From Phycisphaerae bacterium (lineage in GTDB: Bacteria; Planctomycetota; Phycisphaerae; Sedimentisphaerales; Anaerobacaceae): a stretch of 34,666 bases of DNA. Shown here one piece after another: positions 2,740 to 27,313 of this stretch (position 1 is the stretch's first letter; the number at the start of each line of letters is the position of its first letter). The stretch spans positions 1-34,666 of the forward strand of contig JAUXAL010000046.1 in NCBI GenBank assembly GCA_030619925.1. Reading direction: 5' to 3'. The translations under genes and the position numbers were made by a program. The notes under the pieces are model-generated. The model did not search any database. It had not been told where the DNA came from and saw nothing but the letters and a program-made list of their open reading frames with translations.

Positions 2740-4653
2740 CTAATTCTTTTGCAGCCAAAAGTGCGGTAAAATTGCGAAGTCTACAAGATTAATCTCTCTG
2801 TCATCATTCAGGTCGCATGTAGGGTCGTAGTCCGACCCTGCAACCGCATCTGAGCTCAGCCGGCTTGCGGCCAATGGCTCCAAATCCAACGCATCAACGG
2901 TACGGTTTTTATCGATATCACCGGCAAGTGGTATCCGTGGCTCAGAGCAGATAAGTTCTATTCCCCCTGCCATGTTCGGGTCAAGGTTTCGAGAATATTC
3001 TTTGTCCAAAGGATTGTTCCAGTGCTCATGGACTCCCAGACTATCCAGGGGTATTCCGTTAGCTTCCGGATCATAGATAGTACCTGAGCAGGGATCGTTG
3101 GCCAGAGCCGCCTCATGTAAGTAATCATCAATGGCCCCGCGTGCCCTTCGTCTGCCTCCCATATTATCGGCAAACTCCGCTCGCAAAAAATCCAGCGCTA
3201 CCGAATCGATGGCGACCATATCCTGTGACATCAGAATGCTTGAAGGATAATCGTTATTGAACGGAGTATTTTGCCATTGGGTCGGCCGGGAGCTGGAACC
3301 ATGCCAGGGAAAGCCCCACAGGCCATCTAAGATAAAAAGCATGGTTTTACCTCCCAGGTGCTCGTGCCCCATCAAATCCACTAAAACCCGGTAATGTCCC
3401 GACTCGGGGGTGTACTCGTTCAAGAGCATATGGTGCGCATCATTCTGCCTTCCGCCGCCGGGTCGGCGACAAAAGCTGCCATACCAATTCTTGGCACAAA
3501 GGGTTACTCCCGCTGCGCTATGTCCCTTCATTACCCCCAGGTTAATTACATAGTCCGCTTCCACAAAAGGCATGGGCAGCCTGTCAGGGGGTATCGCGCG
3601 GGGCGGATTGGATTTGTCGTTTATGTTGCTGTAATGAATCAGCGGTTCCCTTGACGGCAGGACGGGGGGACGACGAGGATCCGTATAGCGGTAGTCACCC
3701 CTATCCGTGTAAAAATTGGTCACCAGATAGTGGACATTCGGAAAAAGACTGTAACAGCGATCGAAGGTTTTGTTGGTAATGTATCGGGAAGAATCACATA
3801 TCGTTATACATTCCTGCGGAACACCTGCCTCATAGACCAGCTGTTTCAAGAGGCCCACAACTACCTGGGGAGACTGGTCGGCGTAATTGACCTCATAGTC
3901 CAGTTTTCTTTGCTCAACATGGCTGGGCTTAATGGCAATCTTTTGCCCGCTACTATAACCGACATCACCCCTGCCGCGCGTCAAATTAAAGTGCCGAAAC
4001 AGACTGTCCCATCCGGCTGAATCGGTTTCTTCTCCCGCCAGCCAGCGGATGCAATTGGACATCATTTCATCCACCGCCGCCTGGTCGGTGTGATTGTCAT
4101 CCCAATAAAAAATATCCGTCCGGTTGTTCCATTGGGTTTTCCAATTGGTGGCATCAGGATTGTGGGCCCAGACGACCCGGCCGGGGTAAATCCCTTTCGC
4201 AATCCCCATAGGGCTGTTGGGCGGATCGGCCGGAACAAAGGTTTCTGCCAAGGCTTCCCGCGAATTAATACTGATGGTAAGCCAGGCCGCCATCAGGCTA
4301 ATACATATGCACAAGCCGGCTAAAAAATAGCGTGCCTGGCTCGCTTGTTTTTTTGCCTTTCTAAATGCCAGGATTATGACGCCGCCGCCAAGGATATAAC
4401 CAAGAAAACCAGAGGCCAAGGGAAATGCCGCCCGCTGACATGGATAACTCGCACGGCTTGGTTTGGGGATTACCCTTATCAAGAACCAGACCAAGGCCAA
4501 AAAACCGGTAAACAGCCAGAGCCATTTCATCCGAACAAGATTACCGGCTGGACGAATGACTCTTGCGGCCCGCCGAAGGCGGGCATGATCATGGCCGGCG
4601 CTGCCGGCCCGGGAACGATGAGGGCATGGGTGTTGCGTACCGTCAGATGACAT
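2740..4653 (-). CDS. Membrane DUF362 protein with C-terminal dockerin-like domain
   Basis: 637 residues. After a charged leader come three hydrophobic segments (about 42-60, 74-97 and 105-127), then a DUF362 domain (about 150-540) with KIAIKPS, DYVINLGVMKGHSAAG, LCAKNWYGS and MVAIDSVALDFL. The C-terminus (about 575-637) is a dockerin type I-like pair: GDIDKNRTVDALDLEPLA and CDLNDDREINLVDFAILPHFW, two calcium-loop repeats common on exported planctomycete proteins. DUF362 proteins are linked to Fe-S or redox roles but have no settled function. The ATG at 4653 has an ideal AGGAGG six bases upstream. A second ATG at 4530 (MKWLWLF) would drop the 41-residue leader, which carries the dispersed palindrome (AGSAGHDHARLRR). 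I prefer 4653 because of the ribosome site. Confidence 0.8.
   Translation of the reverse strand: MSSDGTQHPCPHRSRAGSAGHDHARLRRAARVIRPAGNLVRMKWLWLFTGFLALVWFLIRVIPKPSRASYPCQRAAFPLASGFLGYILGGGVIILAFRKAKKQASQARYFLAGLCICISLMAAWLTISINSREALAETFVPADPPNSPMGIAKGIYPGRVVWAHNPDATNWKTQWNNRTDIFYWDDNHTDQAAVDEMMSNCIRWLAGEETDSAGWDSLFRHFNLTRGRGDVGYSSGQKIAIKPSHVEQRKLDYEVNYADQSPQVVVGLLKQLVYEAGVPQECITICDSSRYITNKTFDRCYSLFPNVHYLVTNFYTDRGDYRYTDPRRPPVLPSREPLIHYSNINDKSNPPRAIPPDRLPMPFVEADYVINLGVMKGHSAAGVTLCAKNWYGSFCRRPGGGRQNDAHHMLLNEYTPESGHYRVLVDLMGHEHLGGKTMLFILDGLWGFPWHGSSSRPTQWQNTPFNNDYPSSILMSQDMVAIDSVALDFLRAEFADNMGGRRRARGAIDDYLHEAALANDPCSGTIYDPEANGIPLDSLGVHEHWNNPLDKEYSRNLDPNMAGGIELICSEPRIPLAGDIDKNRTVDALDLEPLAASRLSSDAVAGSDYDPTCDLNDDREINLVDFAILPHFWLQKN
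4569..4609 (-). repeat. Double-hairpin palindromic element, copy 1 (in N-terminal coding leader)
   Basis: On the minus strand it reads GGCCGGC-AGC-GCCGGCC, then a TGATCA core, then CCCGCC-TTC-GGCGGG (41 bp). It is translated as AGSAGHDHARLRR near residues 16-28 of the DUF362-dockerin protein if that starts at 4653. Confidence 0.9.
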
Positions 4654-4659
4654 AAGAAA

Positions 4660-4665
4660 CCTCCT
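4660..4665 (-). promoter_or_regulatory. Shine-Dalgarno AGGAGG for the DUF362-dockerin gene
   Basis: AGGAGG on the minus strand, six bases before the ATG at 4651-4653. This decides the start in favour of the long leader carrying the palindromic element. Confidence 0.7.
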
Positions 4666-4711
4666 GCGAGTCTGTCTTACAGTCTTTATTCACATCTCCT
4701 GCGATGTTTTT

Positions 4712-4740
4712 ATTCTACCATTTCAATCCATTTTATACAA
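4712..4740 (-). promoter_or_regulatory. Candidate sigma70-type promoter
   Basis: On the minus strand TTGTAT (4740-4735), a 17-bp spacer and TAGAAT (4717-4712), about 60 bp upstream of the DUF362-dockerin start. The rest of 4741-4884 shows no gene. Confidence 0.4.
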
Positions 4741-4884
4741 GAATGTTAGTAGCTAAGAATATATGTGAAGGCCGGTGTACCGTTCAAAGTCGTGCATTTT
4801 TTCGCCGGAATTTTCACTCAAGGGGACAATTGATGGAGCCGAACGCCGGTATGTGTTCGTCGCAAGTTCTTGACAATAAAGCAA

Positions 4885-4969
4885 TGCGAGCGAGAGGACT
4901 CGAACCTCCACGTCCTTAATGGACACCAGGACCTAAACCTGGCGCGTCTGCCAATTCCGCCACGCTCGC
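4885..4969 (-). tRNA. tRNA-Leu (anticodon UAG)
   Basis: The minus strand folds as a class II tRNA: acceptor GCGAGCG pairing with CGCTCGC, D-arm with AATTGGCAGACGC, anticodon stem CCAGG/CCTGG around loop TTTAGGT (anticodon TAG), a long variable arm (GTCC...GGAC) and T-arm GGTTCGAGTCC. The length is 85 nt including the discriminator A. CCA is not encoded. Confidence 0.95.
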
Positions 4970-4973
4970 TTCT

Positions 4974-5099
4974 CGTATTGCGTATATCGTATTGCGTATG
5001 TCGTATTGCTTACCTTGCGATGCCATCCTTCGTTTTTTCTTTTACCCCTCGCTCACGCTCAGGGCTCTGTTTTCCGTCGGATGTCATTTGTCTTCTGAC
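4974..5099. repeat. Composite repeat, second copy (heptads, linker, TTCTG-type remnant)
   Basis: Five heptads alternate CGTATTG and CGTATAT/CGTATGT at 4974-5008. A linker with ACCCCTCGCTCACGCTCAGG follows at about 5044-5063, then a degraded TTCTG-type tract (CTCTGTTTTCC, TTGTCTTCTGAC). Order and orientation match 1684-1799. It lies between xseB and the tRNA and reaches the last codons of xseB. Confidence 0.65.
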
Positions 5100-5314
5100 G
5101 TCTCTTCCTTGGTTATCTTCTCAATCCGCTTCTCAGCTTTCTGAAGTATTGTCCTGCAGTGCTTAATCAGGGCCATTCCTCTTTCGTACTGCTGCAGGCT
5201 GTTCTGCAAAGGTATTTGGCCTTGCTCTATCTTACCCACAATGTTTGTGAGTTCTTTTATCGCCTCTTCAAAGCTCAATTTGCTGAGGTCATTTTTCCGC
5301 TTCTCGCCCGCCAT
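5084..5314 (-). CDS. xseB: Exodeoxyribonuclease VII small subunit
   Basis: A 76-residue protein of the usual size for XseB. LSFEEAIKELTNIVGKIEQG followed by LQQYERGMALIKHCRTILQKAE is the family signature: two helices that bind the large subunit. With XseA it forms the cytoplasmic exonuclease that degrades single-stranded DNA to acid-insoluble then acid-soluble oligonucleotides. It lies 44 bp downstream of xseA on the same strand and is almost certainly co-transcribed. The last residues (EETSEDK) overlap a dispersed repeat tract, so the C-terminus may have been altered. Confidence 0.95.
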   Translation of the reverse strand: MAGEKRKNDLSKLSFEEAIKELTNIVGKIEQGQIPLQNSLQQYERGMALIKHCRTILQKAEKRIEKITKEETSEDK

Positions 5315-5358
5315 TTCTTTTCCTTTTATAAGTAATCTGTGTAAATCCGTGTTTCTTT

Positions 5359-6708
5359 TTACTTTTTTGTTACCTTACTTTCAATCAAATTCTCATCCGT
5401 AAGTTCTGTAATTAAATAGTCCCCGACCCGGATATCCTCCAAAGTTCTTACCAGCAAGCCTGTCTTTTTGTTGGTGGTAATACTGTATCCCCGCCGCAGG
5501 ACCGATTTGGGATTCAGCCCTGCCAGCCGATTCGTCTGCGCTGTAAGCTGCATCCGGCAGTCATTAACAATTGCCTTTATCGCTGCATTTGTCCGATTTT
5601 TCAAATTATTCAAATCAACCGCTTTCTTTCCTAAGAGCCGGTGCGGCTCAATCCTGACAATCTGCTCATAACTTGCCGACAGCTTGTATTGTGCCGCAAC
5701 CAGCAGCTCCCTTATTGCCTCTGCCAGCTCTGCGGCCAGCTCGTCCAATTGCTGCTCGGCATTTTGGACGAGCAAAAATGGATTTCTAAATACCGCATTA
5801 GCCAAAATCGTCTGCAAATTCTCACCGCACAATTCCAGTTTCGCTCTTGCTTTAGAAGCCAGGCTTTTCTCAAAGTAAGCTAATCGTCCCAGAACTTCCT
5901 GCATATCCGGGACTGCTGTAACACCTGCTTTTGTCGGCGTCGATGCCCTGGCGTCGGCCACGAAATCCGCAACCGTGACATCAACCTCGTGCCCAACCGC
6001 ACTTATAACCGGTATTTGGGAGGCGAAAATCGCCCTGGCCAGAACCTCCTCGTTGAAGGCCCATAAATCCTCCAACGACCCGCCGCCTCTGGCGACAATC
6101 AAAACGTCGAGTTTAAGCTCTTTATTGCGTCTGTTTATGTCTCGCAACGCAGCCGCGATTTTCTCCGCCGCCCCTTCGCCCTGCACCGGTACCGGATACA
6201 GAAACAGCTTCACGCAGGGCCAGCGGTTACGAATGCTGTCGATTATATCGTGCACCGCCGCCCCTGATTCGCTGGTCAATATCCCTATCCTTTCCGGATA
6301 CGCCGGCAGCACTTTCTTATGCACATCGTCAAAAAGTCCCTCGGCTCGAAGTTTTTTTACCATCTGCTCGAAAGCCAGCTGAAGTGCCCCAACGCCCTCC
6401 GGCTCGAGCTTATCAACATAAAGCTGATACTTGCCTCCAACTGTGTAAACATCGATATGACCTGTCGCTAACACCGCCATTCCGTCCTCGGGCGAAAATC
6501 TGACAATCCTGAATTTACCCGCCCACATAACACACGGCAGTATTCCGCTTTCATCTTTCAATGAAAAATAGCAGTGCCCGCTTGAATGAACTTTCCAATC
6601 ACTTATTTCGCCTCTGACTATCAGCCGCGACGGCAGCTTCTCCTCGAGCGCTACTTTGATAAGCGAATTAACCTGGCTGACCGTATATATTTTCCTTGTC
6701 TTCTGCAT
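5359..6708 (-). CDS. xseA: Exodeoxyribonuclease VII large subunit
   Basis: 449 residues, normal family length. An N-terminal OB-fold (about 1-105: YTVSQVNSLIKVALEEKLP, VRGEISDWKVHSSGHCYFSLKD) binds DNA. The catalytic core follows, with LPAYPERIGILTSESGAAVHDI, VIVARGGGSLEDLWAFNEE and VISAVGHEVDVTVADFVADARASTPTKA, all hallmark XseA motifs. A coiled-coil C-terminal half ends with LNPKSVLRRGYSI, also diagnostic. It acts in the cytoplasm with XseB, encoded just downstream. Nothing is truncated or unusual. Confidence 0.97.
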   Translation of the reverse strand: MQKTRKIYTVSQVNSLIKVALEEKLPSRLIVRGEISDWKVHSSGHCYFSLKDESGILPCVMWAGKFRIVRFSPEDGMAVLATGHIDVYTVGGKYQLYVDKLEPEGVGALQLAFEQMVKKLRAEGLFDDVHKKVLPAYPERIGILTSESGAAVHDIIDSIRNRWPCVKLFLYPVPVQGEGAAEKIAAALRDINRRNKELKLDVLIVARGGGSLEDLWAFNEEVLARAIFASQIPVISAVGHEVDVTVADFVADARASTPTKAGVTAVPDMQEVLGRLAYFEKSLASKARAKLELCGENLQTILANAVFRNPFLLVQNAEQQLDELAAELAEAIRELLVAAQYKLSASYEQIVRIEPHRLLGKKAVDLNNLKNRTNAAIKAIVNDCRMQLTAQTNRLAGLNPKSVLRRGYSITTNKKTGLLVRTLEDIRVGDYLITELTDENLIESKVTKK

Positions 6709-6733
6709 CTATCGCACACAACCACCCGCTCAG

Positions 6734-9001: not shown

Positions 9002-9194
9002 AATACAGCTCCTTATTTTTTTAGCAGCTTTCCTGTACTGCTGATTATAAGTCCAAATCGCCAAATCATCAATTCCCAATCCGCTCGGCCCCAATACATG
9101 GCTGCCCGTCAATGCTACTCTACGAAGCACGAGTGGCCGGTTCGAACTGACCCAGGCGTTGCCGGGCTTTTAGGGCGAATTGCGGATAATTTCC

Positions 9195-9224
9195 TTGACT
9201 TAGGGGGTCTAAATTTGATAAAAT
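9195..9224 (+). promoter_or_regulatory. Candidate promoter for the C39-like gene
   Basis: TTGACT, an 18-bp spacer and TAAAAT end 33 bp before the proposed start at 9258. The divergent gene starts at 9001; the rest of 9002-9194 shows no gene. Confidence 0.5.
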
Positions 9225-9257
9225 ACTCGTGATGAAAAGTGTGTAGCTTGCAGGAGG

Positions 9258-10198: not shown

Positions 10199-10391
10199 CC
10201 CCGCACCAATCTAAAGTTATAAGTGAACTAAAGTGAGCTAAAGTGACATGTAAGTGTCATTCTGAGCGAAGCGAAGAATCTGGTCAACGAAAAAGAGATT
10301 CTTCACTTCGCTGCGCTGCGTTCAGAATGACAGCTAAAGCTGTCACTTTAGGCACTTTACACTTTAGGCACTTTACACTTTAGGTGCGGGG
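10199..10391. repeat. 193-bp inverted-repeat element carrying a nested GTCATTCTGAG repeat
   Basis: The ends are inverted: CCCCGCACC at 10199-10207 against GGTGCGGGG at 10383-10391. They continue as CTAAAGTGAGCTAAAGTGAC on the left and GTCACTTTAGGCACTTTACA on the right. The centre is a different repeat at 10256-10331. The same outer arms recur at 11784-11992 around another centre. No coding capacity; it looks like a non-autonomous mobile element. Confidence 0.75.
10256..10331. repeat. GTCATTCTGAGCGAAGCGAAG-type dispersed repeat (inner cargo)
   Basis: An imperfect inverted repeat starts GTCATTCTGAGCGAAGCG and ends CGTTCAGAATGAC, with AAGAATCT and AGATTCTT inside. This sequence type is recognised as a dispersed extragenic repeat in many bacterial genomes. 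Here it lies inside another inverted-repeat element. Confidence 0.8.
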
Positions 10392-10404
10392 CCACCCGAA
10401 TTGC

Positions 10405-10540: not shown

Positions 10541-10580
10541 GCCGGCAGCGCCGGCCTTGATCAGCCCCGCCTCCGGCGGG
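10541..10580 (+). repeat. Double-hairpin palindromic element, copy 2 (intergenic)
   Basis: GCCGGC-AGC-GCCGGC, TGATCA at 10558-10563, then CCCGCC-TCC-GGCGGG. The second loop is TCC rather than TTC. It lies downstream of both flanking genes. Confidence 0.88.
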
Positions 10581-11992: not shown

Positions 11993-12135
11993 ACAACCCG
12001 CAGCATAAGCCGCAATTGGCCAAACATGAATTATACTTGCAGCCATGCCCATTTTGGGCTATAAACGTGTGCTTTTTAGAGTGAGTCTTGTTTTTCACGA
12101 AGCGTCATTTACAGACTACAAAATCAGAGGTAACA

Positions 12136-14835
12136 ATGATACGTCAACTACACCACAATAATAACAATGCTCGCGGGAACTTAAGCTCAAGGCCGACAAC
12201 ACAATTTTTGACTTTTGCATTTGTGACTTGCGTTTTTGCTTGTAGTGGGGCGGCACAGGACTTTGTTCCTTTCGTGATTCCCGCAGAGCCGGATGCCAAT
12301 TCGCCAATGGCAGTCACATCCTTTGAGCCGATTGAGACCGACTCCGCCCGCCTGGTTGCGCGGTCCGGACACTTCTATCGCGGCGACCGGCCCGGCAGCG
12401 CCGGGTTTGATCAAGCCCGCCTTCGGCGGGTCCGCCTCTGGGGTGTCAATCTGTCATTCGGGGCGAATCTGCCCAAACATGAGGATGCCCCGCACGTTGC
12501 CGGACGTCTGGCTGCGGCCGGTGTCAACGCCGTCCGATGTCACCATATGGACTCCGCTCAGTGGCCTCGTGGGCTATGGAACGCCCAGGACGGTAAAACC
12601 ATTACTCCGGAGGCCCTTGACAGACTTGACTATTTTATCGACCAGCTTGCTCGTCATGGAATCTTTGTCAATATTAATCTTCACGTTGGCCGAGCGCACA
12701 GCCGGTATCTTGGCCTGCCGGAAGCCAACCGCCAATACGATAAAATCTCCAATATCTTCACGCCTGAACTGGTTGACGCTCAGAAGAAGTACGCCCGCGA
12801 CCTCCTGGCCCATGTCAACCCGTATCGCAACGTTCGTTACGCCGATGACCCGGCTGTGGCCATAGTCGAAATTACTAATGAAAACAGCTTCTTTATGTGG
12901 GCCAGTGAGGAGACGCTGCGGACACTTCCTCCGTATTATGCGGAAATTCTGCAGAGCAAGTTCAATACGTGGCTGACCGGCCGCTATGGTTCAGATGATA
13001 ATCTGCGCACAGCCTGGTCGCAGGGGGCTGGCCCGCTTGGTGGGAACCTTTTAAGCAACGGCAATTTTCAGACAATTACCCCGGGCATAGGTGTGCCAGA
13101 GAACTGGCGCCTGGAGCAGCATTCCGGATGCAAAGCTTCCGTTTCGCCGCATCGCCGGTTCAGAGATGCGCTTCGCATCGAGATTACCAGGGCTGATGAG
13201 ACTCAATGGCACCTCCAGCTTAACCAGGGGTCTCTGGCCGTAGAGGCAGGGCAGTACTACACTGTCATCTTTGAAGCTGCCAGTGATATGCCTCGCCTGA
13301 TTGGCTGCAACGTCGGCCAGGCGCATAGCCCCTGGAACAATCTCGGGCTTTCAAGACAAGTGGAATTGGGCCAGGAGTGGCAGACGTATCGTTTTGGCTT
13401 TGTTGCCAAGGCTGACGATGACAACGCTCGGATTAATTTTGCCTTCAGCGGCAGCACAATACCGTTCTACCTTGCCAACGTGGAGTTTCGGCCCGGCGGC
13501 AGAGTGGCAATGTACGGAGATGAATCCATCCAGGCCGGTACGGTTGCTCTATTTGTCGACAGTGAGACACCGGCCCGTACCCTCGACCGGATGTGCTTCC
13601 TGGCAGAAACGGAAAAGGCATACTTCGATGATATGCGAGGGTTCATCAGAAATGACCTGGCTTCCAAAGCGCTTGTAACCGGCACGGTTGTCTTCGGGCC
13701 GCTGGGTCTGTATGCGCAAAGCGATATGGATTTCATAGATACCCACGCTTATTGGCAGCATCCGCGGTTTCCGGGAAGGCCGTGGGACCGCAATAATTGG
13801 GTTGTTGAACAAAAACCGATGACCGATTACCCCGCCGAGGCGACGCTGTTTCAATTGGCTGCCAGACGCCTGGCCGGCAAACCCTTTACAGTCAGCGAAT
13901 ACAACCACCCTGCTCCGCTGGATTCTCAAGCCGAGTGTGTCCCTATGATAGCTTCATTTGCTGCCGCCCAGGACTGGGACGGCGTGTGGCTATATACGTA
14001 CTCGCATACTTCCGACAGTTGGGATAGAGAGTACCTAAATAGCTATTTTGATATCGACACAAACCCGGCCAAGTGGGGATTCATGCGAGCGGGCACAGCT
14101 ATCTTTCGTCACGGCGGAATCGACCCTTTTGGCGATTCTCTGGTTGTTTCACTCACTGATACTTTGGATACGGTACCATCGCTGGCTAACTTGCACCTCA
14201 AACATGATCGGGACATGTTCGCTGTGCTTTCTGAGCAGGCCGGAATCAGCCGGGATGATTTGCTCAAAGCCAGGTTGTTCGCGAGTCTTGATAATGAAGT
14301 AGAACCTCAAGAATTATTCGGGCCTTCGGCCAGGCTGGACTGGTCTGTCGAAGATGGAAAAGGTGTTTACATCGCGCGTGGTCAATGCGCATCGGTTTAT
14401 ACCGGCCATGCCGAGAGGTTTGAAGAAGCCCCGGCAGCGCCGGGTTTGATCAGTCCCGCCTTCGGCGGGGGAGGACAAATTACTATTGCCGGGCCGGAGC
14501 TGGTGTCGATATCTGTGACCGCGTTGGATGGAGCGCAGCTGGATTTGAGTCGAAAGATTCTCGTTACCGCTTGCGGGCGGTGCGAAAATACGGGTATGGG
14601 GTTTTCCAGGGACCGCCGCACAGTCGGGACGAACTGGGGCAGCTCGCCCGTCCGAATCCAGGCGGTTAAAGGGACATTGGCCTTGCCTGCGGGGCAGTGG
14701 ATATGTCACGCCCTCGGCCCTGACGGTTTGCCAGGTTCGCAAGTGCCTGTCCTGTATGAAGCTGGCGAAAATATTCTGCAAATGGAACCGCAGTATAAAA
14801 CTATGTGGTACCTGCTGACGCGGCGTACAGAGTAG
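12136..14835 (+). CDS. Exported GH5-like glycoside hydrolase with internal carbohydrate-binding domain
   Basis: 899 residues from the ATG at 12136 (AGAGG upstream), with a signal peptide ending near CSGAAQ. A cellulase-like (beta/alpha)8 domain has RLWGVNLSFGANLP, VNAVRCHHMD, IVEITNENSFF (candidate acid/base Glu249) and FTVSEYNHPAP (candidate nucleophile Glu588). Between them, about 305-455, lies a CBM4/9-like beta sandwich (LLSNGNFQTITPGIGVPENW ... FYLANVEFRPGG). The C-terminus has a further beta domain. Two copies of the dispersed palindrome interrupt it in frame: residues 86-98 (PGSAGFDQARLRR, between GDR and VRLWG) and about 766-778 (PAAPGLISPAFGG), read in different frames. Substrate unknown; the adjacent GH50-like enzyme and sulfatase suggest a sulfated algal glycan. 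Confidence 0.82.
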   Translation: MIRQLHHNNNNARGNLSSRPTTQFLTFAFVTCVFACSGAAQDFVPFVIPAEPDANSPMAVTSFEPIETDSARLVARSGHFYRGDRPGSAGFDQARLRRVRLWGVNLSFGANLPKHEDAPHVAGRLAAAGVNAVRCHHMDSAQWPRGLWNAQDGKTITPEALDRLDYFIDQLARHGIFVNINLHVGRAHSRYLGLPEANRQYDKISNIFTPELVDAQKKYARDLLAHVNPYRNVRYADDPAVAIVEITNENSFFMWASEETLRTLPPYYAEILQSKFNTWLTGRYGSDDNLRTAWSQGAGPLGGNLLSNGNFQTITPGIGVPENWRLEQHSGCKASVSPHRRFRDALRIEITRADETQWHLQLNQGSLAVEAGQYYTVIFEAASDMPRLIGCNVGQAHSPWNNLGLSRQVELGQEWQTYRFGFVAKADDDNARINFAFSGSTIPFYLANVEFRPGGRVAMYGDESIQAGTVALFVDSETPARTLDRMCFLAETEKAYFDDMRGFIRNDLASKALVTGTVVFGPLGLYAQSDMDFIDTHAYWQHPRFPGRPWDRNNWVVEQKPMTDYPAEATLFQLAARRLAGKPFTVSEYNHPAPLDSQAECVPMIASFAAAQDWDGVWLYTYSHTSDSWDREYLNSYFDIDTNPAKWGFMRAGTAIFRHGGIDPFGDSLVVSLTDTLDTVPSLANLHLKHDRDMFAVLSEQAGISRDDLLKARLFASLDNEVEPQELFGPSARLDWSVEDGKGVYIARGQCASVYTGHAERFEEAPAAPGLISPAFGGGGQITIAGPELVSISVTALDGAQLDLSRKILVTACGRCENTGMGFSRDRRTVGTNWGSSPVRIQAVKGTLALPAGQWICHALGPDGLPGSQVPVLYEAGENILQMEPQYKTMWYLLTRRTE
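12391..12430 (+). repeat. Double-hairpin palindromic element, copy 3 (inside GH5-like CDS)
   Basis: CCCGGC-AGC-GCCGGG, TGATCA (12408-12413), CCCGCC-TTC-GGCGGG. A 39-bp unit (12391-12429) adds PGSAGFDQARLRR. Deleting it leaves GDR-VRLWGVNL, the expected strand. Confidence 0.93.
14430..14469 (+). repeat. Double-hairpin palindromic element, copy 4 (same CDS, other reading frame)
   Basis: CCCGGC-AGC-GCCGGG, TGATCA (14447-14452), CCCGCC-TTC-GGCGGG. It is translated as PAAPGLISPAFGG, a different frame from copy 3, again adding 39 bp without disrupting the gene. Confidence 0.93.
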
Positions 14836-14904: not shown

Positions 14905-17073
14905 ATGAAGAAGAAAAGCTTTTTCTTGAGCTTCATAGTTGTCGTTTTAGGCTCGGCTTTCACGATGACGGTTGCGTTGTGTGCTGCAGAAGAAGCACCC
15001 CGCCATGCGGAGCTGGTTCTTTTTGATTTTGGCGAGGGCTTCGACGTCGGCGAAGTTATAACGAATGACGCCAAAGTCACCTTGTCCGAAGTCGGGACGC
15101 TACGCATCGAAACCGGCCACAACAAACCATGGCCTGGCGTTACTCTGAAGGCACCACTTGGAAAATGGGACCTATCGAAGTACGAGTATGTATACATGGA
15201 CGTTACGAACATCGGGACCGAACCGGTTACAGTTTACTGCCGTGTGGACAACCCCGGCGCCGATGGCAGCGAGAACTGCGTGACTGATAGTATCGCTCTG
15301 AATCCGAAGGTGGCCGGAACACTCATGGTACGCTTGTTTCCTACACCCTGGCGGCTTTCTGAGCCGGTCGAGCTGATTGGCATGCGAGGGGCACCGATGC
15401 ATTCCGGTAAGGTCGATGCCTCCAATATCGCCCAGTTGCTTGTATACGTTCGCAAGCCCGCCACGCGAATGGCGGGCAAGCCCGGTATCGACCACACCTT
15501 TGAGATTAAAAACATCCGCGCGGCCGGCCACGTTGAGCTGCTGGATGCAAAGACTTTCTTTCCCTTCATCGACGAGTTCGGCCAGTTCATCCACATGGAT
15601 TGGCCGGGAAAGACGCACTCTTTGGAAGAGCTAATCGCGCACGGAAAGGCTGAGGAAAAGGACCTCGCCGCTCATCCCGGCCCGGCTGACCGCGACCGGT
15701 ACGGTGGCTGGATCGCCGGGCCTGAGCTTAGGGCTACCGGTTTTTTCCGCGTACAAAAGTATCGGGGCAAGTGGTGGATGGTGGACCCGCAAGGCCGACT
15801 GTTCTGGTCGCACGGCATTGATTGCGTCCGCAGTGCAAACGCCACACCGATTACCGACCGCGAACACTATTACCGCAATCTGCCCGAGGCTGACTCACCG
15901 TTTGCGAAATTCTACGGCACGGGTAGCTGGGCCCCACACGGGTATTACAAGGACCATTCGCCCTATAAGACGTACGACTTCAGCCAGGCCAACTTCTTGC
16001 GGAAGTACGGCCGGAATTGGGAAAAGGCCCTTGCTGAGATAACCCACCGCCGGCTAAAAAGCTGGGGAATGAATACCATTGCCAACTGGTCGGATAGCAG
16101 TATTTACCTGATGCGCAAGACGCCGTATGTGTGTACGGTCAGCTACAGTGCCAAAAGACTGGAAGGCTCGGAGGGCTATTGGGGCAAGTTCTACGATGTG
16201 TTTGACCCGAGTTTCCGGCAGGCGCTGCGAAGGCAACTTGCATCGGAGAAAAGCAAAACCGCCGGCGACCCGTGGTGCATCGGCTACTTCGTGCACAACG
16301 AGCTGAGCTGGGGCGACGAGGTGTCGCTGGCGGTGGCGACTTTGATTTGTCCTGCTGACCAGCCAGCCAAGAGGGTTTTTGTTGATGACCTCAGGACCAA
16401 GTACAAGACTATCGACAAGCTCAATGCCGCCTGGGATACGAGGCATAAAACGTGGGAGATTCTGCTGCAAAGCCGGCAGGCCCCGGACAAAAAGAAAGCC
16501 TGGGCGGATCTGACGGCTTTCTATACCAGGACTGCTGAGACTTACTTCGGGACCATCCGCGAGGAGCTCAAAAAAGTTGCGCCGGACCAGCTCTATATGG
16601 GCTGCCGGTTCGCCTGGGTGAACGACCGGGCGGCGCGAGCGGCGGCAAAGTTCTGTGACGTCGTCAGCTACAACCGTTACAGCTACAGCGTCGAGGAGCA
16701 CCGCCTGCCGGACGGCATCGACAAGCCGGTAATCATAGGCGAGTTCCACTTTGGAGCGCTGGATCGTGGTATGTTCCACACAGGGCTAAGGAAAACAGCT
16801 AACCAGCAAGACCGCGCCGCCAAGTACAAAAGTTATGTCCGTGGAGCGCTGCGGAATCCGTATATAGTCGGCACGCACTGGTTTCAGTACAAGGACCAGG
16901 CGACGACCGGGCGCGGCGACGGCGAAAACTACCAGATTGGCTTCATTGACGTCTGCGACAAGCCTTATCCCGAGATAGTCCAGGCCTGCCGCGAAGTTGC
17001 CCGCGGAACGCGGGATGGTTCGAGCCGGCCGGTGGCCGGCAGCCTGTATGAATTTCGGCTCAAGAGTAAGTGA
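14905..17073 (+). CDS. GH50-like (beta-agarase family) exported glycoside hydrolase
   Basis: 722 residues from the ATG at 14905, which begins a signal peptide (MKKKSFFLSFIVVVLGSAF...). The upstream frame to 14851 lacks one. Residues about 30-205 form a galactose-binding-like beta domain (VELLDFGEGF-type start to HTFEIKNIRAAG). The catalytic part opens with YGGWIAGPELRATGFFRV and KWWMVDPQGRLFWSHGID, typical of GH50 agarases. FVHNELSWG gives candidate acid/base Glu466 and VIIGEFHFGALDRG candidate nucleophile Glu613. Family members cut agarose or related galactans; the exact substrate is inferred. A separate CCCGCC...GGCGGG hairpin sits in the coding sequence at 15456-15477. The stop codon is followed at once by palindrome copy 5. 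Upstream GH5-like and downstream sulfatase genes point to a glycan-degradation set. Confidence 0.82.
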   Translation: MKKKSFFLSFIVVVLGSAFTMTVALCAAEEAPRHAELVLFDFGEGFDVGEVITNDAKVTLSEVGTLRIETGHNKPWPGVTLKAPLGKWDLSKYEYVYMDVTNIGTEPVTVYCRVDNPGADGSENCVTDSIALNPKVAGTLMVRLFPTPWRLSEPVELIGMRGAPMHSGKVDASNIAQLLVYVRKPATRMAGKPGIDHTFEIKNIRAAGHVELLDAKTFFPFIDEFGQFIHMDWPGKTHSLEELIAHGKAEEKDLAAHPGPADRDRYGGWIAGPELRATGFFRVQKYRGKWWMVDPQGRLFWSHGIDCVRSANATPITDREHYYRNLPEADSPFAKFYGTGSWAPHGYYKDHSPYKTYDFSQANFLRKYGRNWEKALAEITHRRLKSWGMNTIANWSDSSIYLMRKTPYVCTVSYSAKRLEGSEGYWGKFYDVFDPSFRQALRRQLASEKSKTAGDPWCIGYFVHNELSWGDEVSLAVATLICPADQPAKRVFVDDLRTKYKTIDKLNAAWDTRHKTWEILLQSRQAPDKKKAWADLTAFYTRTAETYFGTIREELKKVAPDQLYMGCRFAWVNDRAARAAAKFCDVVSYNRYSYSVEEHRLPDGIDKPVIIGEFHFGALDRGMFHTGLRKTANQQDRAAKYKSYVRGALRNPYIVGTHWFQYKDQATTGRGDGENYQIGFIDVCDKPYPEIVQACREVARGTRDGSSRPVAGSLYEFRLKSK
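15456..15477. repeat. Short hairpin inside the GH50-like CDS
   Basis: GCCCGCC (15456-15462) pairs with GGCGGGC (15471-15477) around an 8-base loop. It codes KPATRMAGK within VYVRKP...IDHTFEI and may be a half-size relative of the dispersed palindrome. Confidence 0.4.
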
Positions 17074-17074: not shown

Positions 17075-17115
17075 CCCGCTGAAGGCGGGTATGATCGAGG
17101 CCGGCGCTGCCGGCC
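17075..17115 (-). repeat. Double-hairpin palindromic element, copy 5 (just after a stop codon)
   Basis: In reverse orientation it reads CCCGCT-GAA-GGCGGG, TATGATCGA, then GGCCGGC-GCT-GCCGGCC. It starts one base after the stop of the GH50-like gene. Confidence 0.88.
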
Positions 17116-17140
17116 CCCAGCCGTATAAAATATTTGCAAA

Positions 17141-17229
17141 CCCGCCAACGGCGGGTATGATTATGGCCGGACTTCGGCGAGCTCAGTCAAGCCGCGCGTA
17201 TTATCATGGCCATCGATGCTGGCCGGCCA
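17141..17229 (-). repeat. Double-hairpin palindromic element, copy 6 (interrupted)
   Basis: CCCGCC-AAC-GGCGGG, TATGATTAT and GGCCGG start as in copy 5. The second hairpin is then split by about 50 bp (CTTCGGCGAGCTCAGTC...ATTATCATGGCC) before GCTGGCCGGCC resumes. This looks like a nested insertion. It ends 13 bp before the sulfatase start. Confidence 0.55.
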
Positions 17230-17242: not shown

Positions 17243-18712
17243 ATGAATCGACGTGAATATCTGAAACTCGTAGGTCTTGGGGCCGCGGCGCTGGCCGTGC
17301 CGGGATGCGCAAGCATCTCTAAACGACTTGCAGGCAATGGGGCGCCCAACATCGTCCTGATCGTTTCTGATGACCAGGGTTACCATGACTTAGGTTGCTA
17401 CGGCGGGACCGAAGTTAAGACGCCTAACCTCGACCGCCTGGCCGCCGGTGGGGTTCGGCTGACAAACTTCTACGTCACCTGGCCGGCCTGCACACCGTCA
17501 CGAGGCAGTCTCCTCACAGGCCGCTATCCGCAGCGCAATGGTACCTATGATATGTATCGCAACTACCTGGTCGATCATGACCACCTCTACAGTGAACACG
17601 AATACGCTGTATCGTTTGAGATGATCGGCGGAATGGACACCCGCGAGGTGCTCATCCCCCGCGTGCTCAAACGGGCCGGTTACACCAGCGGCATCTTCGG
17701 TAAGTGGGACCTGGGGCAGCTGCATCGTTTTCTTCCTCTTCAACGAGGCTTTGACGAGTTTTACGGGTTCACCAACACCGGTATCGACTATTGGACGCAC
17801 GAACGCTACGGCGTGCCGTCGATGCGCCGCGGCAACAGGCCGACCACCGAAGATAAAGGCACGTACGCCACTGACCTGTTCCGGCGCGAGGCCATACGTT
17901 TCATTAGGAAGGCAAAGGCCGGCAGCGCCGGCCATGATCAGACCCGCCTTCGGCGGGGTCCGTTCTTCTGCTACGTGCCGTTCAACGCCCCACACGGCGC
18001 CTCCAATCTCCAGCGTCCGCGTCCGGGTGTGCAGGCGCCGCTTGAGTACATACGCAGGCACTACGGTCAGTATGACCCAAAAGACGCCAGCTCCCGCAGG
18101 GCCAAACGTATTCGGTACATGGCCGCTATCACGTATATGGACGAGGCGATCGGCCAAATCCTGCGAGTCCTGGCCGAGCACGACCTGCAGGACAATACTA
18201 TCGTCATCTTCTTTTCCGATAACGGCGGCAGCGGAAGCACGGCGGACAACGGTCCACTGCGGGGCGGCAAAGGATGGATGTTCGAGGGCGGAATCCGTGT
18301 ACCCTGCATAGTGCGCTGGCCGGGCGTAATTCCGGCAGGGACGGTCTGCGATGAGTTTCTGACCGCAATGGAGATATTCCCAACGCTCTGCGGGGCCGCG
18401 GGGGTCCGCCCGCCCCAGGGTGTGGTCCTTGACGGCTTCGACATGACTGCGGTCCTGGCCGGAAAACAAAAATCGTCTCGGAAAGAAATGTTCTGGCAGC
18501 GCAGGGCTGACAAAGCCGCGCGGGTCGGAAACTTCAAATGGGTAGAGTCATCACGCGGCTCGGGACTGTTCGACCTTTCCAGGGATGTCGGTGAACAGCA
18601 TGACCTGTCAAAGGAAAAACCCGATGTGTTGAGCAAGGTCAAGTCACGTTTTGCAGCATGGAAGAAACGCATGGCCGATGCCGAGCCTCGCAGACCGTTC
18701 CGGGACTTTTAG
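17243..18712 (+). CDS. Exported type I sulfatase (formylglycine-dependent)
   Basis: 489 residues with GGGAGG seven bases upstream. The N-terminus (NRREYLK...AVPGC) combines a twin-arginine-like motif with a lipobox at Cys22. Metal-binding APNIVLIVSDDQG (Asp43/44) and CTPSRGSLLTGRYP (Cys83, matured to formylglycine) are the sulfatase signatures. GKWDLGQLH and the later FFSDNGG complete the active site. It would remove sulfate esters from carbohydrates outside the cytoplasm. A palindrome copy adds AGSAGHDQTRLRR at residues 226-238, immediately before the core strand GPFFCYVPFNAPHG; the family normally runs straight from the lysine-rich helix into this strand. An anaerobic or aerobic formylglycine-generating enzyme must be encoded elsewhere. 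Confidence 0.93.
   Translation: MNRREYLKLVGLGAAALAVPGCASISKRLAGNGAPNIVLIVSDDQGYHDLGCYGGTEVKTPNLDRLAAGGVRLTNFYVTWPACTPSRGSLLTGRYPQRNGTYDMYRNYLVDHDHLYSEHEYAVSFEMIGGMDTREVLIPRVLKRAGYTSGIFGKWDLGQLHRFLPLQRGFDEFYGFTNTGIDYWTHERYGVPSMRRGNRPTTEDKGTYATDLFRREAIRFIRKAKAGSAGHDQTRLRRGPFFCYVPFNAPHGASNLQRPRPGVQAPLEYIRRHYGQYDPKDASSRRAKRIRYMAAITYMDEAIGQILRVLAEHDLQDNTIVIFFSDNGGSGSTADNGPLRGGKGWMFEGGIRVPCIVRWPGVIPAGTVCDEFLTAMEIFPTLCGAAGVRPPQGVVLDGFDMTAVLAGKQKSSRKEMFWQRRADKAARVGNFKWVESSRGSGLFDLSRDVGEQHDLSKEKPDVLSKVKSRFAAWKKRMADAEPRRPFRDF
17917..17957 (+). repeat. Double-hairpin palindromic element, copy 7 (inside sulfatase CDS)
   Basis: GGCCGGC-AGC-GCCGGCC, ATGATCAGA, CCCGCC-TTC-GGCGGG. It adds 39 bp in frame (residues 226-238) in the same frame as copies 1 and 3. 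Confidence 0.94.
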
Positions 18713-20624: not shown

Positions 20625-20652
20625 GCTTGTTGAAAACGACCCCAACAAGCCG

Positions 20653-20675
20653 GGTTTTGGTGTGTAGCCAAAACC
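20653..20675 (+). promoter_or_regulatory. 8-bp hairpin before the LamG ribosome site
   Basis: GGTTTTGG-TGTGTAG-CCAAAACC is a perfect stem followed by an AT-rich stretch and a T6 run, then AAGGAGGATTATT and the ATG at 20709. It could act as an attenuator or translation control structure. Confidence 0.4.
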
Positions 20676-20708
20676 TAATTATATTAACTTTTTTGAAGGA
20701 GGATTATT

Positions 20709-23504: not shown

Positions 23505-23663
23505 CTGGATAGAGATGGAACTATTGTGCAGGCAGGATGTACTTCGACGAGATGAGACTGCAGCCTGCGCCGGCTTTGGAGGCCGAGGAACCTGCAGCTC
23601 AAGAATGATTTGAGCGACGGGCAGAGTGGCCTTGGGCCGGCAGGGCTTAACGTTTAACTGGAT

Positions 23664-23702
23664 TTCCGGGCCTATGCTGCTTGATGCGGCATAGGCCCGG
23701 AA
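23664..23702. terminator. 14-bp perfect hairpin between convergent genes
   Basis: TTCCGGGCCTATGC pairs exactly with GCATAGGCCCGGAA around an 11-base loop. It lies between the LamG stop (23504) and the tatC stop (23735), so it probably ends transcription from both sides. No other feature is seen in 23505-23734. Confidence 0.75.
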
Positions 23703-23734
23703 TTAGTGCAAATCTACTGCTCTATCGTCCGTCA

Positions 23735-24511
23735 TCACTGGTTGTTCTGTGCTCTTTTCTTTCGTTCCGCAACGTAACTCAGCAATATGCCTAATTCAAA
23801 CAGCAAATACAACGGTATTCCGAGAGTTATTTGAGAGATTATGTCCGGCGGAGTGGCCATAGCCGCTGCTACGAATATGCCAAGCAGAACAAATTTTCTT
23901 GACCTGCGCAACCCCTTGACTGAGACCAAACCTGTTTTGTTTAAGAAGAAAATAGCTACCGGGGTCTGAAATGCAATGCCAAAAACAAGCATCAGCATGG
24001 TTACAAAAGATATGTAGTTCGCGAAAGTAAAATTGGAGCTGACGCCGAGGACTCTCTCGTTGAACTTCACAAGGAAACCAAGCGTGAGCGGCGCCACTAC
24101 CATTATGAAGAACAAAGCCCCTGTCACAAATAGTGCCGCCGAAAAAGGTGCCGCCATGTGAACATAACGTTTTTCATTCGGATAAAGTCCAGCGGCGACA
24201 AACATCCATAACTGATAGAAGACCCACCATGATGATAGTATCAGACCTGAGATTAAAGCAATTTTTATGTAGCTGATGATACCATCGGCAGGAGCAAGGG
24301 TCTGCAGACGGGCACCTTCGCCCATGACCCCGATATATGGTTCTTCTATAAAGGCTATTATTTTTGAACAGAAAACAAGGCAAATGACCGCACCGACCAC
24401 CAGCCCGACCAGGGCACGAATCAGGCGCATCCGCAACTCCTCAAGGTGGTCGCCCAGACTCATAGTGCTATCGAGGGGGTCTTGTTTCTTCTTCTTTTTG
24501 GTCTTGCCCAT
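23735..24511 (-). CDS. tatC: Sec-independent translocase subunit TatC
   Basis: 258 residues. After a very lysine-rich start (MGKTKKKKKQDP) come STMSLGDHLEELRMRLIRAL, the conserved TatC opening with the Glu and Arg that contact the twin-arginine signal. Six membrane segments follow, with LIEEPYI-like (FIEEPYIG), FKVALISG-like (YIKIALISGLILSSWWVFYQLWMF) and FVAAGLYPNEKRYV. It is the substrate receptor of the twin-arginine pathway in the inner membrane. It lies 45 bp downstream of tatA on the same strand, and Tat substrates are encoded in the divergent operon. Confidence 0.96.
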   Translation of the reverse strand: MGKTKKKKKQDPLDSTMSLGDHLEELRMRLIRALVGLVVGAVICLVFCSKIIAFIEEPYIGVMGEGARLQTLAPADGIISYIKIALISGLILSSWWVFYQLWMFVAAGLYPNEKRYVHMAAPFSAALFVTGALFFIMVVAPLTLGFLVKFNERVLGVSSNFTFANYISFVTMLMLVFGIAFQTPVAIFFLNKTGLVSVKGLRRSRKFVLLGIFVAAAMATPPDIISQITLGIPLYLLFELGILLSYVAERKKRAQNNQ

Positions 24512-24556
24512 TTCAATCTGTAAGGCGAGTCTGAAGAAACTTTCAGCTCAGGCATG

Positions 24557-24826
24557 TTAGCTCATGGTCTCGGATTCGTCCAGACCGGCGGCGTCCTTGA
24601 CCTCTTTTACTACTTCGTCCTTAAGCTCCTTTACGTCACTAACCAAATCATCCTTGGTTTCTTCTACTTCGCGAACTCCCTTCTTGAACTCGGTCAGACT
24701 CTTACCCAGACCGCGGGCAATCTCGGGCAGCCGTCTGCCGAATAGAAGCACCGCGATAATAAGAATAATGACAAGCTCAAAGGGACCGGGCGTCCAAAAC
24801 CCCAGATATTGCATATATTCAGTCAT
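24557..24826 (-). CDS. tatA: Sec-independent translocase pore subunit TatA/TatE family
   Basis: 89 residues. One short N-terminal membrane helix ([15 protein letters not shown]) is followed by the amphipathic helix [20 protein letters not shown], the hallmark of TatA. A charged, coiled-coil-prone tail ([20 protein letters not shown]) follows. GGAG lies eight bases before the ATG, and a near-consensus promoter lies at 24857-24886. The N-terminal extension of about ten residues before the helix is slightly longer than in E. coli. It could serve as TatA and TatB together, since no tatB is visible. Confidence 0.94.
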
Positions 24827-24856
24827 TTTATAGTCTCCTTATTCATCTATCGCAGT

Positions 24857-24886
24857 ATTATAACGCGAGATGAGCTGCTTTGTCAA
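24857..24886 (-). promoter_or_regulatory. tatA-tatC promoter
   Basis: On the minus strand TTGACA (24886-24881), an 18-bp spacer and TATAAT (24862-24857): both boxes are perfect consensus. It starts about 30 bp before tatA. Confidence 0.75.
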
Positions 24887-24909
24887 TAATAACAATGCAC
24901 TAAATTTAA

Positions 24910-24938
24910 TTGATACAAACACCAACACAAAGTATAAT
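24910..24938 (+). promoter_or_regulatory. Promoter of the DUF6599-DUF362 operon
   Basis: TTGATA, a 17-bp spacer and TATAAT, divergent from and 23 bp away from the tatA promoter. Transcription from here excludes the upstream ATG at 24870 and supports the start at 24987. Confidence 0.75.
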
Positions 24939-24986
24939 CCATCCCGGTTTCAGGGTCAAGTAAATTACTTTTATTTGGAGTTGGCT

Positions 24987-26042
24987 ATGTGTTCAGTGCT
25001 ATGCCTAAATAAACGTCCTCGTCTCGGTGAAGGCCGAGGCCGTAGCGGGGTCGAATCCGCCATAAGTATCCTTCTATTAACGGTTCTTCTTCTTATCGGC
25101 TTGGGGGTATTCATAAGGCAATTCGATGTTGATATGGGTCGATTCGGCATTGATACAACCACCGCAGGCCTATTATTGGAACAAACAGAACCAAACACGC
25201 AGGAACCGGCCTTAGACGCCCTGATGCCTGATGGATTCAAAAAGCTCTCAGAAACCGAAACGTATGACGCCGGAAATCTTTATGAAAAGATCAATGGCAA
25301 AGCCCCTTCTTATACCGAATCCGGCTTTGAAAAATTGTTTACCCAGCGATTTATAAGTAAGGACAACGAGAGTTTGTGGATGGAGCTTTTTGTTTTTGAT
25401 ATGGCTGCCATCAGAAATGCGTTTTCGGTTTACAGCGTACAAAGAAGAGCGGATGCGGATATTCTCTCGCTTTTCCATCCATCGTTCGGCTACAGGACTG
25501 ACAATGCCCTGTATTTCGTCCACGGAAAATATTACGTAGAATTGATCGGTTCGGCCGAATCGACTCGACTGTTTAAGGCGATGACAGAGATTGCAGGAAA
25601 TATTACGAGCAAACTGAAAGTTGGTGAAGTTGAGCAGATAGCTGAGCTGAGTTTATTTCCTGACGAGAATGCTGTCCTCGGCAGCGATAAATTGTACCTG
25701 GCAGATGCCTTTGGCTTTGACGGTTTGACCGATATTTTTGTCCGTCGATATAAGCTCGACGACGAGACCATTAGCGCTTTTCTTAGCAAACGCCCCGACT
25801 CCAAGAAGGCTGAGGTAGTCGCAGAAAGCTATCGTAACTTTCTGATTGAAAATGGTGCCACAACAAGGAAGGCAATCAATAAAACTCTCGAAGGCAAAGT
25901 CCTGGATTTCTATGACACGACTGAAATTGTGCTTTCGACAGGGCCTTTCGTTGTAGGCATTCACGAAGCTGAAAATCAGCGATCGGCGGAAGAATTAGCA
26001 GTCAAACTTATTGACAAACTCAGTACCAGCAAAAAACGGTAA
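24987..26042 (+). CDS. DUF6599 family membrane-anchored protein
   Basis: 351 residues from the ATG at 24987 (GGAG six bases upstream, downstream of the promoter). One membrane segment (SILLLTVLLLIGLGVF, about 30-45) is followed by an extracytoplasmic domain. MPDGFKKLSETETYDAGNLYEKINGKAPSY is the DUF6599 signature start, continuing with LWMELFVFDM and NAFSVYSVQRR. The domain is repeated in weaker form towards the C-terminus (LADAFGFDGLTDIFVRRY). No biochemical role is established. It is translationally close to the next gene (3-bp gap), a Tat-exported DUF362 protein, and this pairing with DUF362 suggests an exported redox or cofactor function. Confidence 0.78.
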   Translation: MCSVLCLNKRPRLGEGRGRSGVESAISILLLTVLLLIGLGVFIRQFDVDMGRFGIDTTTAGLLLEQTEPNTQEPALDALMPDGFKKLSETETYDAGNLYEKINGKAPSYTESGFEKLFTQRFISKDNESLWMELFVFDMAAIRNAFSVYSVQRRADADILSLFHPSFGYRTDNALYFVHGKYYVELIGSAESTRLFKAMTEIAGNITSKLKVGEVEQIAELSLFPDENAVLGSDKLYLADAFGFDGLTDIFVRRYKLDDETISAFLSKRPDSKKAEVVAESYRNFLIENGATTRKAINKTLEGKVLDFYDTTEIVLSTGPFVVGIHEAENQRSAEELAVKLIDKLSTSKKR

Positions 26043-26045
26043 AGA

Positions 26046-27038
26046 ATGACTGAGCAAAACGATAAAAATCTCGGACGAAGGCAGTTTCTGACCCGAGCAG
26101 GCAAAGCTGGAATTTCTATTGCCGCCGCTGGTTTAATTTCTTGGCGACTTTATGATAGCCAGGGGCCAAAGACCGGCGTTGATGCCGAATCACTCGTAAC
26201 TTTGCCGGATTTTTCGGTTCCGGACAAAACCGGCCGGACAATAAGCATTGTCAAAGGTTCCGATAGAGTCAAGACCGTCAATAAGGCAATAGACTTGCTC
26301 GGCGGTATAGAAAGATTTGTCAAGCCCGGCGAAACGGTTGCGATAAAGCCAAATGTCGCATTTGCCTCACCGCCGATGCTTGGAGCTACAGCCCGGCCTG
26401 AATTGGTGGCTGAAGTGGTACGGCTGTGCTATAAGGCCGGGGCAAAGCGGGTTACAGTTACCGACAACCCAATCAATGACCCTGCAAGCTGTTTTACATT
26501 AAGCGGTATCGGCAAGGCGGCCAGCCAAGCCGGCGCCAAAGTCGTACTGCCAAAAGACCATCTGTTTAGACATACAACACTCGATGGTGGTAAGCTTATT
26601 AGAAACTGGCCCGTATTTTTTGGGCCATTTGAAAATGTGGACAAATTGATTGGCATCTCGCCGGTAAAAGACCACGCCAGAGCCGGTGCTTCGATGGCTA
26701 TGAAGAACTGGTATGGCCTTCTGGGCGGCAGACGGAACGTCTTCCATCAGGATATCAATACCATCATTGCCGAGCTGTCTATGATGGTAAAGCCAACGTT
26801 GGTGATATTGGACGGCACTGAAGTTATGATGACGAACGGCCCGACCGGAGGTTCAGTCTCAGATTTGAGACGTGCAGACATTTTGGTCGCAAGCACTGAC
26901 ATGGTGGCAGCCGATTCCTACGGGTGCACACTCCTGGACCTGGCGGTCTCGGATTTGCCTTATCTTACAAAAGCCGAAAGGGCCGGCGCAGGAACAACCA
27001 GCTATGAGGCACTCAAGCCGGTATTTGGTGCAGTGTGA
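26046..27038 (+). CDS. Tat-exported DUF362 protein
   Basis: 330 residues. The N-terminus has a twin-arginine signal (GRRQFLTRAGKAGISIAAAGL). The rest is a single DUF362 domain: VAIKPNVAFASPP, LCYKAGAKRVTVTDNP, KDHARAGASMAMKNWYGLLGG and DMVAADSYGCTLL. Unlike the membrane copy at 2740-4653 it has no dockerin and no membrane segments beyond the signal. It starts three bases after the DUF6599 stop, so the two are co-transcribed. The Tat translocase genes are divergent next door, and the ferredoxin and aldo/keto reductase genes follow, which fits an exported redox system. DUF362 has no agreed reaction. Confidence 0.85.
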   Translation: MTEQNDKNLGRRQFLTRAGKAGISIAAAGLISWRLYDSQGPKTGVDAESLVTLPDFSVPDKTGRTISIVKGSDRVKTVNKAIDLLGGIERFVKPGETVAIKPNVAFASPPMLGATARPELVAEVVRLCYKAGAKRVTVTDNPINDPASCFTLSGIGKAASQAGAKVVLPKDHLFRHTTLDGGKLIRNWPVFFGPFENVDKLIGISPVKDHARAGASMAMKNWYGLLGGRRNVFHQDINTIIAELSMMVKPTLVILDGTEVMMTNGPTGGSVSDLRRADILVASTDMVAADSYGCTLLDLAVSDLPYLTKAERAGAGTTSYEALKPVFGAV

Positions 27039-27060
27039 AACCTGCCTTTGGTACAACAGA

Positions 27061-27235
27061 GGACAGAGGACAGAGGACAGAGAACAGAGAACAGAGAACA
27101 GAGAACAGAGAACAGAGAACAGAGGACAGAGGACAGAGGACAGAGGACAGAGAACAGAGGACAGAGAACAGAGAACAGAGGACAGAGAACAGAGGACAGA
27201 GGGCAGAGGACAGAGGACAGAGGACAGAGAACAGA
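27061..27235. repeat. 25-unit heptanucleotide tandem array (GGACAGA/GAACAGA)
   Basis: Exactly 175 bp of in-phase heptamers: 13 GGACAGA, 11 GAACAGA and one GGGCAGA, preceded by CAACAGA. All three forward frames stay open across it, so apparent small ORFs here are artefacts. It starts 22 bp after the stop of the DUF362 gene. Confidence 0.97.
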
Positions 27236-27272
27236 TAATCTGACTTCTGTCAATCTGACTGATGAAGATGAA

Positions 27273-27313
27273 CCCCGGCAGCGCCGGGGTGGATCAGCCC
27301 CGCCTTCGGCGGG
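27273..27313 (+). repeat. Double-hairpin palindromic element, copy 8 (intergenic)
   Basis: CCCCGGC-AGC-GCCGGGG, TGGATCA in place of TGATCA, CCCGCC-TTC-GGCGGG. It lies between the heptad array and the DUF4832 gene. Confidence 0.9.

Follow-up and report, generated by a model that had tools for sequence, protein, structure and literature searches.

A repeat of about 40 nucleotides, predicted to form two adjacent hairpins, is scattered through the genome of a Phycisphaerae bacterium (Planctomycetota; assembly GCA_030619925.1), where it lies in frame in unrelated genes. The repeats probably constitute a family of very short, non-autonomous, lineage-restricted mobile double-hairpin DNA elements, as judged from sequence comparisons. 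They came to attention in contig JAUXAL010000046.1 (contig C8 in our numbering), which was analysed over its entire length of 34,666 nucleotides and is called the window here. An earlier note, made from the letters of the window alone, had listed eight copies. All eight were found at the places given, together with a ninth, decayed copy at 16996-17042. The source genome comprises 4.02 Mb in 141 contigs and is 92.8% complete; the nearest matches to its DnaA are in Planctomycetota genomes, many of them labelled Phycisphaerae or Sedimentisphaerales (best match 73% identity).

If this reading is correct, the element would add a clear bacterial example, besides those in Rickettsia and Wolbachia, of a mobile repeat that lengthened many ordinary proteins, including DnaA and MurD. 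Both of these proteins are essential in well-studied bacteria. Because the unit is about 40 nucleotides long, is used in both directions, can usually be read through, and has empty homologues available, it provides a natural in-frame insertion series with which one can ask how proteins tolerate new segments. The element also raises the question of how hairpin DNA can spread when no transposase is obvious.

Copy number and structure of the element

The pattern CCGGCAGCGCCGG-NNN-TGATCA-NN-CCCGCCTTCGGCGGG, with up to three mismatches tolerated, matched the genome 46 times (24 and 22 per strand), whereas the reversed pattern did not match at all. A covariance model (R1) built from 35 copies gave 144 matches genome-wide at a cut-off of E 0.1. 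Merging overlaps, which were mostly the same place read on opposite strands, left at least 136 distinct places; this total is a lower bound because 150 of 4054 first-look candidates were scored, and its weakest matches are fragments or doubtful. The excess of the motif in the genome, by which the earlier note wanted its proposal judged, is therefore present.

The element consists of a first hairpin whose triloop is usually C-ANC-G, a linker with GATC at its centre, and a second hairpin, usually with a C-TTC-G triloop; in most copies the conserved core is 39 nt. Of the copies with the main length, 85 in number, 76 have AGC, AAC, or ACC as loop 1, 70 have TTC or TCC as loop 2, and 74 have GATC within the linker. 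The stems show strong covariation. In a free alignment, 22 cells had both sides of a pair altered, compared to a mean of 5.8 in shuffles. A larger, model-fitted alignment (A3) gave 192 doubly changed cells versus 60.5 in shuffles; these counts are inflated because A3 keeps some double-strand readings of one place, and the free alignment is the cleaner test. On the strands tested, the element was predicted to fold as both RNA and DNA, with RNA z-scores from -0.9 to -3.3. The second hairpin had been described as carrying a very stable C(TTCG)G tetraloop; the letters CTTCGG are indeed there, but in the predicted folds the loop is the three bases TTC, on a stem of 6 bp. Searches against known RNA families returned a tRNA only for the window, and a tRNA plus one sub-threshold sRNA match (E 0.17) for four loci at a relaxed threshold.

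Variants of 48, 49, and 51 nt exist, as do copies with other short repeats inside a hairpin. Such further repeats (about 36, 24-26, 30, and 33 nt) occur in element hairpins or alone in contigs C84, C92, C135, C24, C54, C62, C83, and C126, and at 17170-17195 of the window. Eleven matches in the DNA examined (contigs C13, C21, C30, C65, C72, C74, C87, C102, and C106) belong to a longer subfamily whose first loop is of GAA type and whose linker is CTGGACTGGATCA. Copy density is uneven along the genome; the 36-kb contig C91 contains 14 copies, up to four of them in one ORF (open reading frame) of 1201 aa.

Reading frames and strands of copies within genes

We counted a copy as coding when it lay inside an ORF that reached 150 aa and had coding-like codon use, length and codon use being the sole basis on which ORFs were called. 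By this definition 95 of the 136 copies are coding. They are distributed over 71 ORFs, of which 53 contain one copy, 13 two, four three, and one four. Under a stricter test, which demanded a coding signal in the 120 bases on each side, 32 of the 136 copies passed. Among the 41 copies outside ORFs, one may lie between two halves of a gene; it is partial, and its coding scores are weak.

Coding copies are sense in 48 cases and antisense in 47, and all six frames are in use. The single orientation of the four coding copies recognized in the earlier note was thus an effect of the small sample. Its statement that two of three frames are open, with the TGA of the core closing the third, was right and applies to both strands of the consensus. 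Thirteen coding copies are read in frames that the consensus TGA would close, and 12 of these lack TGATCA, a loss that is partly definitional because an ORF was required for counting.

We submitted 29 of the 71 host ORFs to a Pfam scan, and 21 were assigned to a family at E 1e-5; one further ORF of the window was without any. The hosts with matches include MurD, DnaA, a 2-oxoacid dehydrogenase acyltransferase, a ROK kinase, sulfatases, and a terminase-like protein.

Empty sites in homologous genes

Five host proteins were compared to their relatives, and at the tested sites the relatives lacked the element. The acyltransferase insert (13 codons) is missing from all 18 relative loci, and the DnaA insert (12 codons) from all 35 among the matches listed. 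For MurD, 28 of the 29 relatives compared span the site and all 28 are without the insert, which amounts to 20 codons in all, eight of them beside the element. The remaining two proteins are encoded in the window. For the 915-aa protein, none of the 18 relatives that span the site at 12391 has the insert (the net gain is 12 codons against 15 of them), nor has any of the 17 that span the site at 14430 (12 codons against 14). The sulfatase insert at 17917 is missing in all seven close orthologues, with a net of 12 codons in each. In the other relatives spanning these window sites the net was 11 or 13 codons. The earlier note had these three window copies interrupting conserved enzymes and adding 39 bp each. 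The insertions stand; however, the net gain is mostly 36 bp, and the three copies reside in two proteins, the sulfatase and the 915-aa protein, whose sole Pfam match is CBM_4_9. The same residues in unrelated homologues, which were to speak against insertion, were not seen in the relatives of the five proteins; shared sites occur only within the family.

For 38 of the 95 coding copies in the genome as a whole, the DNA examined contained a homologue that spans the site with at least 45% identity, and the best homologue was used to estimate net length. The gain was 12 codons in 13 copies, 13 in seven, 11 in two, and some other number in 16. Twenty of the 38 comparable copies thus add 12 or 13 codons, which corresponds to 36 or 39 bp and not to 39 bp throughout. 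For the terminase-like and ceramidase-like genes, comparison to G035, a genome from another genus of the family, shows that exactly 39 nt are inserted between flanks that match, with nothing duplicated. In the alignments of most other clean empty sites, about three target bases appear to be gone as well. The terminase-like gene is of phage type (contig C54, locus L105, 2597-4129); its copy is in frame, and the G035 homologue is without it.

Distribution among related genomes

Element matches were obtained in 8 of 100 related genomes, the source genome included, and a scan of 398 genomes across the class gave matches in 6; all of these genomes belong to the family of the source genome. These scans scored 61 and 15 candidates per genome, respectively, so the numbers of copies are minimum values and absence from a genome is weak evidence. 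No match was found in the 39 genomes of other families among the 100, given the limited candidates scored. One strict pattern was also run against wider collections of genomes and viral contigs without a match, although near records of the source genome were possibly excluded there. The element family thus appears to be lineage-restricted, with matches confined to one family of the class.

Three insertion sites are common to other genera of the family, one each with G013 (where two loci carry it), G035, and G003. In the part of G035 that was examined, a distinct 49-nt subfamily with paired stem changes dominates. At one further site, the G035 copy has the opposite orientation and different stems (locus L361, 6121-6167, versus C91, 5146-5193, in the source genome), reflecting either two insertions at one site or an inversion.

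How the element may spread

Strand neutrality and private insertions fit a non-autonomous mobile element that is recognized through its hairpins. Copies would spread as hairpin-forming DNA, single-stranded at some stage, through the action of an enzyme in trans. The flanks of 85 copies show a preference for C-R-G-[G/C] before and Y-Y-G-G after the element, the outer positions being weaker outside ORFs. Insertion would be favored at sites resembling C-R-G-[G/C] ^ Y-Y-G-G, often with the loss of a few target bases. Within genes, the surviving copies would be those whose net length is divisible by three and which bring no in-frame stop, each adding about 11-13 tolerated residues. We also searched for target duplication at 24 offsets, and no offset near the element length stood out. 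The largest combined value (2.85) was at offset 58 and was taken as chance.

Several observations weigh against this explanation. No enzyme could be tied to the element: the source genome encodes four Y1_Tnp proteins, and the 11,331 bases of flanking sequence around their genes contain no copies. The presence of Y1_Tnp also does not follow that of the element, as the former is found in 84 of the 100 related genomes and the latter in 8. At the three sites shared between genera, change in the element codons was somewhat lower than elsewhere in the gene (P 0.005 to 0.07 per comparison), which could mean constraint. The net length fell outside 11-13 codons in 16 of the 38 comparable copies; in this group some homologues also carry the element and some local alignments are poor. 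Finally, the genomes compared included no close strain, and hence neither filled and unfilled alleles from one species nor any proof that the element moved recently were at hand.

A narrower form of the same explanation, which we hold to be possible though doubtful, is a REP/REPIN-type (repetitive extragenic palindrome) element moved by a RAYT (REP-associated tyrosine transposase) of the source genome. One of the four Y1_Tnp proteins is a clear REP_Tyr_transpos match (188.6 bits, cut-off 80), the other three being weaker, and HUH enzymes are suited to short GC-rich hairpins without target duplication. The earlier note had suggested a check for mobilizing enzymes, and these four are its yield, none linked to the element. 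Against a RAYT stand the element-free flanks and the discordant distributions described above, including one genome (G011) with an element match and no Y1_Tnp match. The consensus is also without a GTAG or CGTC tag, and the copies are mostly intragenic.

It is less probable, indeed unlikely, that the element represents a new mechanistic kind of mobile element, with a target chosen by base pairing, a putative enzyme, and a 39-nt payload that can be read in frame. The bases directly flanking hairpin 1 are complementary to each other in 80 of 85 copies (41.8 expected), and the one in front of the hairpin is already there in the relative at two clean empty sites. The target may thus supply part of the hairpin 1 stem. 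In IS200/IS605 transposition, guide bases read the target, and pairing of this kind would be comparable. However, acyltransferase relatives mostly have another base at the position before hairpin 1, and the element may itself carry the base that precedes this hairpin.

Slightly less credible still is a cis-acting element that the host keeps for its benefit in mRNA stability, transcription, or chromosome organization. The strong conservation of the pairing and of GATC would be expected of such a function, as would the slightly slower change at the shared sites. Nevertheless, genic copies have no strand bias (48 versus 47) and use all six frames, relatives lack the element at the tested sites of five host proteins, and 8 of 100 related genomes, the source included, have it. 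That the ribosome passes over the insert, or that the insert is taken out of the product, as with mitochondrial hop elements, which are bypassed and add no residues, is very improbable in spite of the stable hairpins predicted, since skipping would relax the demands on frame and stops and yet 95 copies are in open frames (in part a matter of definition, because an open frame was required for counting), and since only one of the 41 copies outside ORFs, which form an independent test, possibly separates two halves of a gene.

Comparison with known repeats

The element can be compared to the Rickettsia palindromic elements (RPEs) and their Wolbachia counterparts. These palindromic repeats are reported both from intergenic DNA and, in frame, from conserved genes that are unrelated to one another, and relatives share some sites and not others; RPEs are 105-146 bp or about 150 bp long and form one long stem-loop with terminal inverted repeats, and a conserved peptide is reported for each (PMC2229807, PMC10969869, PMC3767692). 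The likeness in principle to RPEs claimed in the earlier note is borne out: our element is a palindromic repeat in frame in unrelated conserved protein genes such as dnaA and murD, and the relatives compared are without it. In contrast to RPEs, it has about 39 nt and two hairpins in place of a 100-150 bp single stem-loop with terminal inverted repeats, and it has no conserved peptide, being read in all six frames, 48 times sense and 47 times antisense. The element works like RPEs but is not one.

REPs are likewise short GC-rich hairpins with paired changes, and intragenic REPs are reported in several species, among them Opitutus terrae of the same superphylum (PMC3733652, PMC3116915). Unlike REPs and REPINs, the element has no GTAG or CGTC tag, either in the consensus of 35 copies with flanks or in the flank profile of 85, and it was not found in the examined flanks of the four Y1_Tnp genes. 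REPs are mainly extragenic, whereas 95 of the 136 copies found here are in ORFs. Nor is the element made of two inverted copies of one unit, as REPINs are.

The closest architecture is that of the double-hairpin elements in fungal mitochondria (Allomyces) and of related repetitive hairpin elements. These are reported to have two adjacent hairpins, to vary in copy number among relatives, to lack flanking duplications, and to occur in genes as well (PMC2800124). The two adjacent hairpins, the variable copy number, the absence of flanking duplication, and the location in genes are common to both; the fungal elements are mitochondrial, and the likeness is architectural only.

Cyanobacteria contain very small dispersed mobile repeats, and these are not known to have a dedicated enzyme; our element resembles them in being very short and dispersed. 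MITEs (miniature inverted-repeat transposable elements) are characterized by target-site duplication and the inverted ends of a known transposon; of these two traits, the duplication was looked for here, and none was seen. The open-access literature yielded no description of such an element in planctomycetes, most subscription papers being outside that search; this agrees with the earlier note, with the qualification that intragenic REPs are on record in O. terrae (PMC3733652).

Copies and other features of the window

The copies at 4569-4607, 17075-17113, and 17137-17181, as well as the ninth, have the element's own strand on the minus strand of the window; the others are on the plus strand. 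Two copies, at 12392-12430 and 14431-14469, are in frame and sense in the 915-aa ORF (12088-14835, plus strand) and are read in different frames. The copy at 17919-17957 is in frame and sense in the 489-aa sulfatase ORF (17243-18712, plus strand; Pfam). The 39-nt core at 10542-10580 is outside the ORFs accepted as genes.

Three copies are clustered around the 3' end of a 740-aa ORF. The decayed ninth copy, near this end, was found with a later model (R2, E 8e-8) and is a weak member among direct repeats. The copy at 17075 directly follows the stop codon. The next, at 17137-17181, was correctly called interrupted in the earlier note; the interruption is another short repeat (about 17170-17195) in the first hairpin, and the copy is decayed. 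Including this one, the short repeat is found at six places in the DNA examined, with up to four mismatches.

The 39-nt core at 4569-4607, which the earlier note took for a fourth coding copy, lies in a doubtful N-terminal extension of a 637-aa DUF362 ORF (2740-4653, minus strand), preceding the region conserved in relatives. For 18 of 19 relatives, the homologous region does not begin before residue 28; in the remaining one (locus L348), a weak alignment passes through the copy with a net gap of 9. The end of the tRNA-Leu at 4885-4969 has a counterpart of 30 bases, 87% identical to it, at 2682-2711. The DUF362 gene thus has a tRNA on one side and a piece of tRNA on the other, an arrangement like that left by site-specific integration.

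Arrays of 7-base tandem repeats (ACAGAGG, TCGTATA, and others) lie between genes of the window at 27028-27270, 1673-1734, 4959-5006, and 10341-10398. The copy at 27275-27313 is just downstream of the first of these and upstream of an ORF at 27344. Elsewhere in the genome such arrays extend into reading frames, and one of them holds a copy of the element (contig C3, locus L076).

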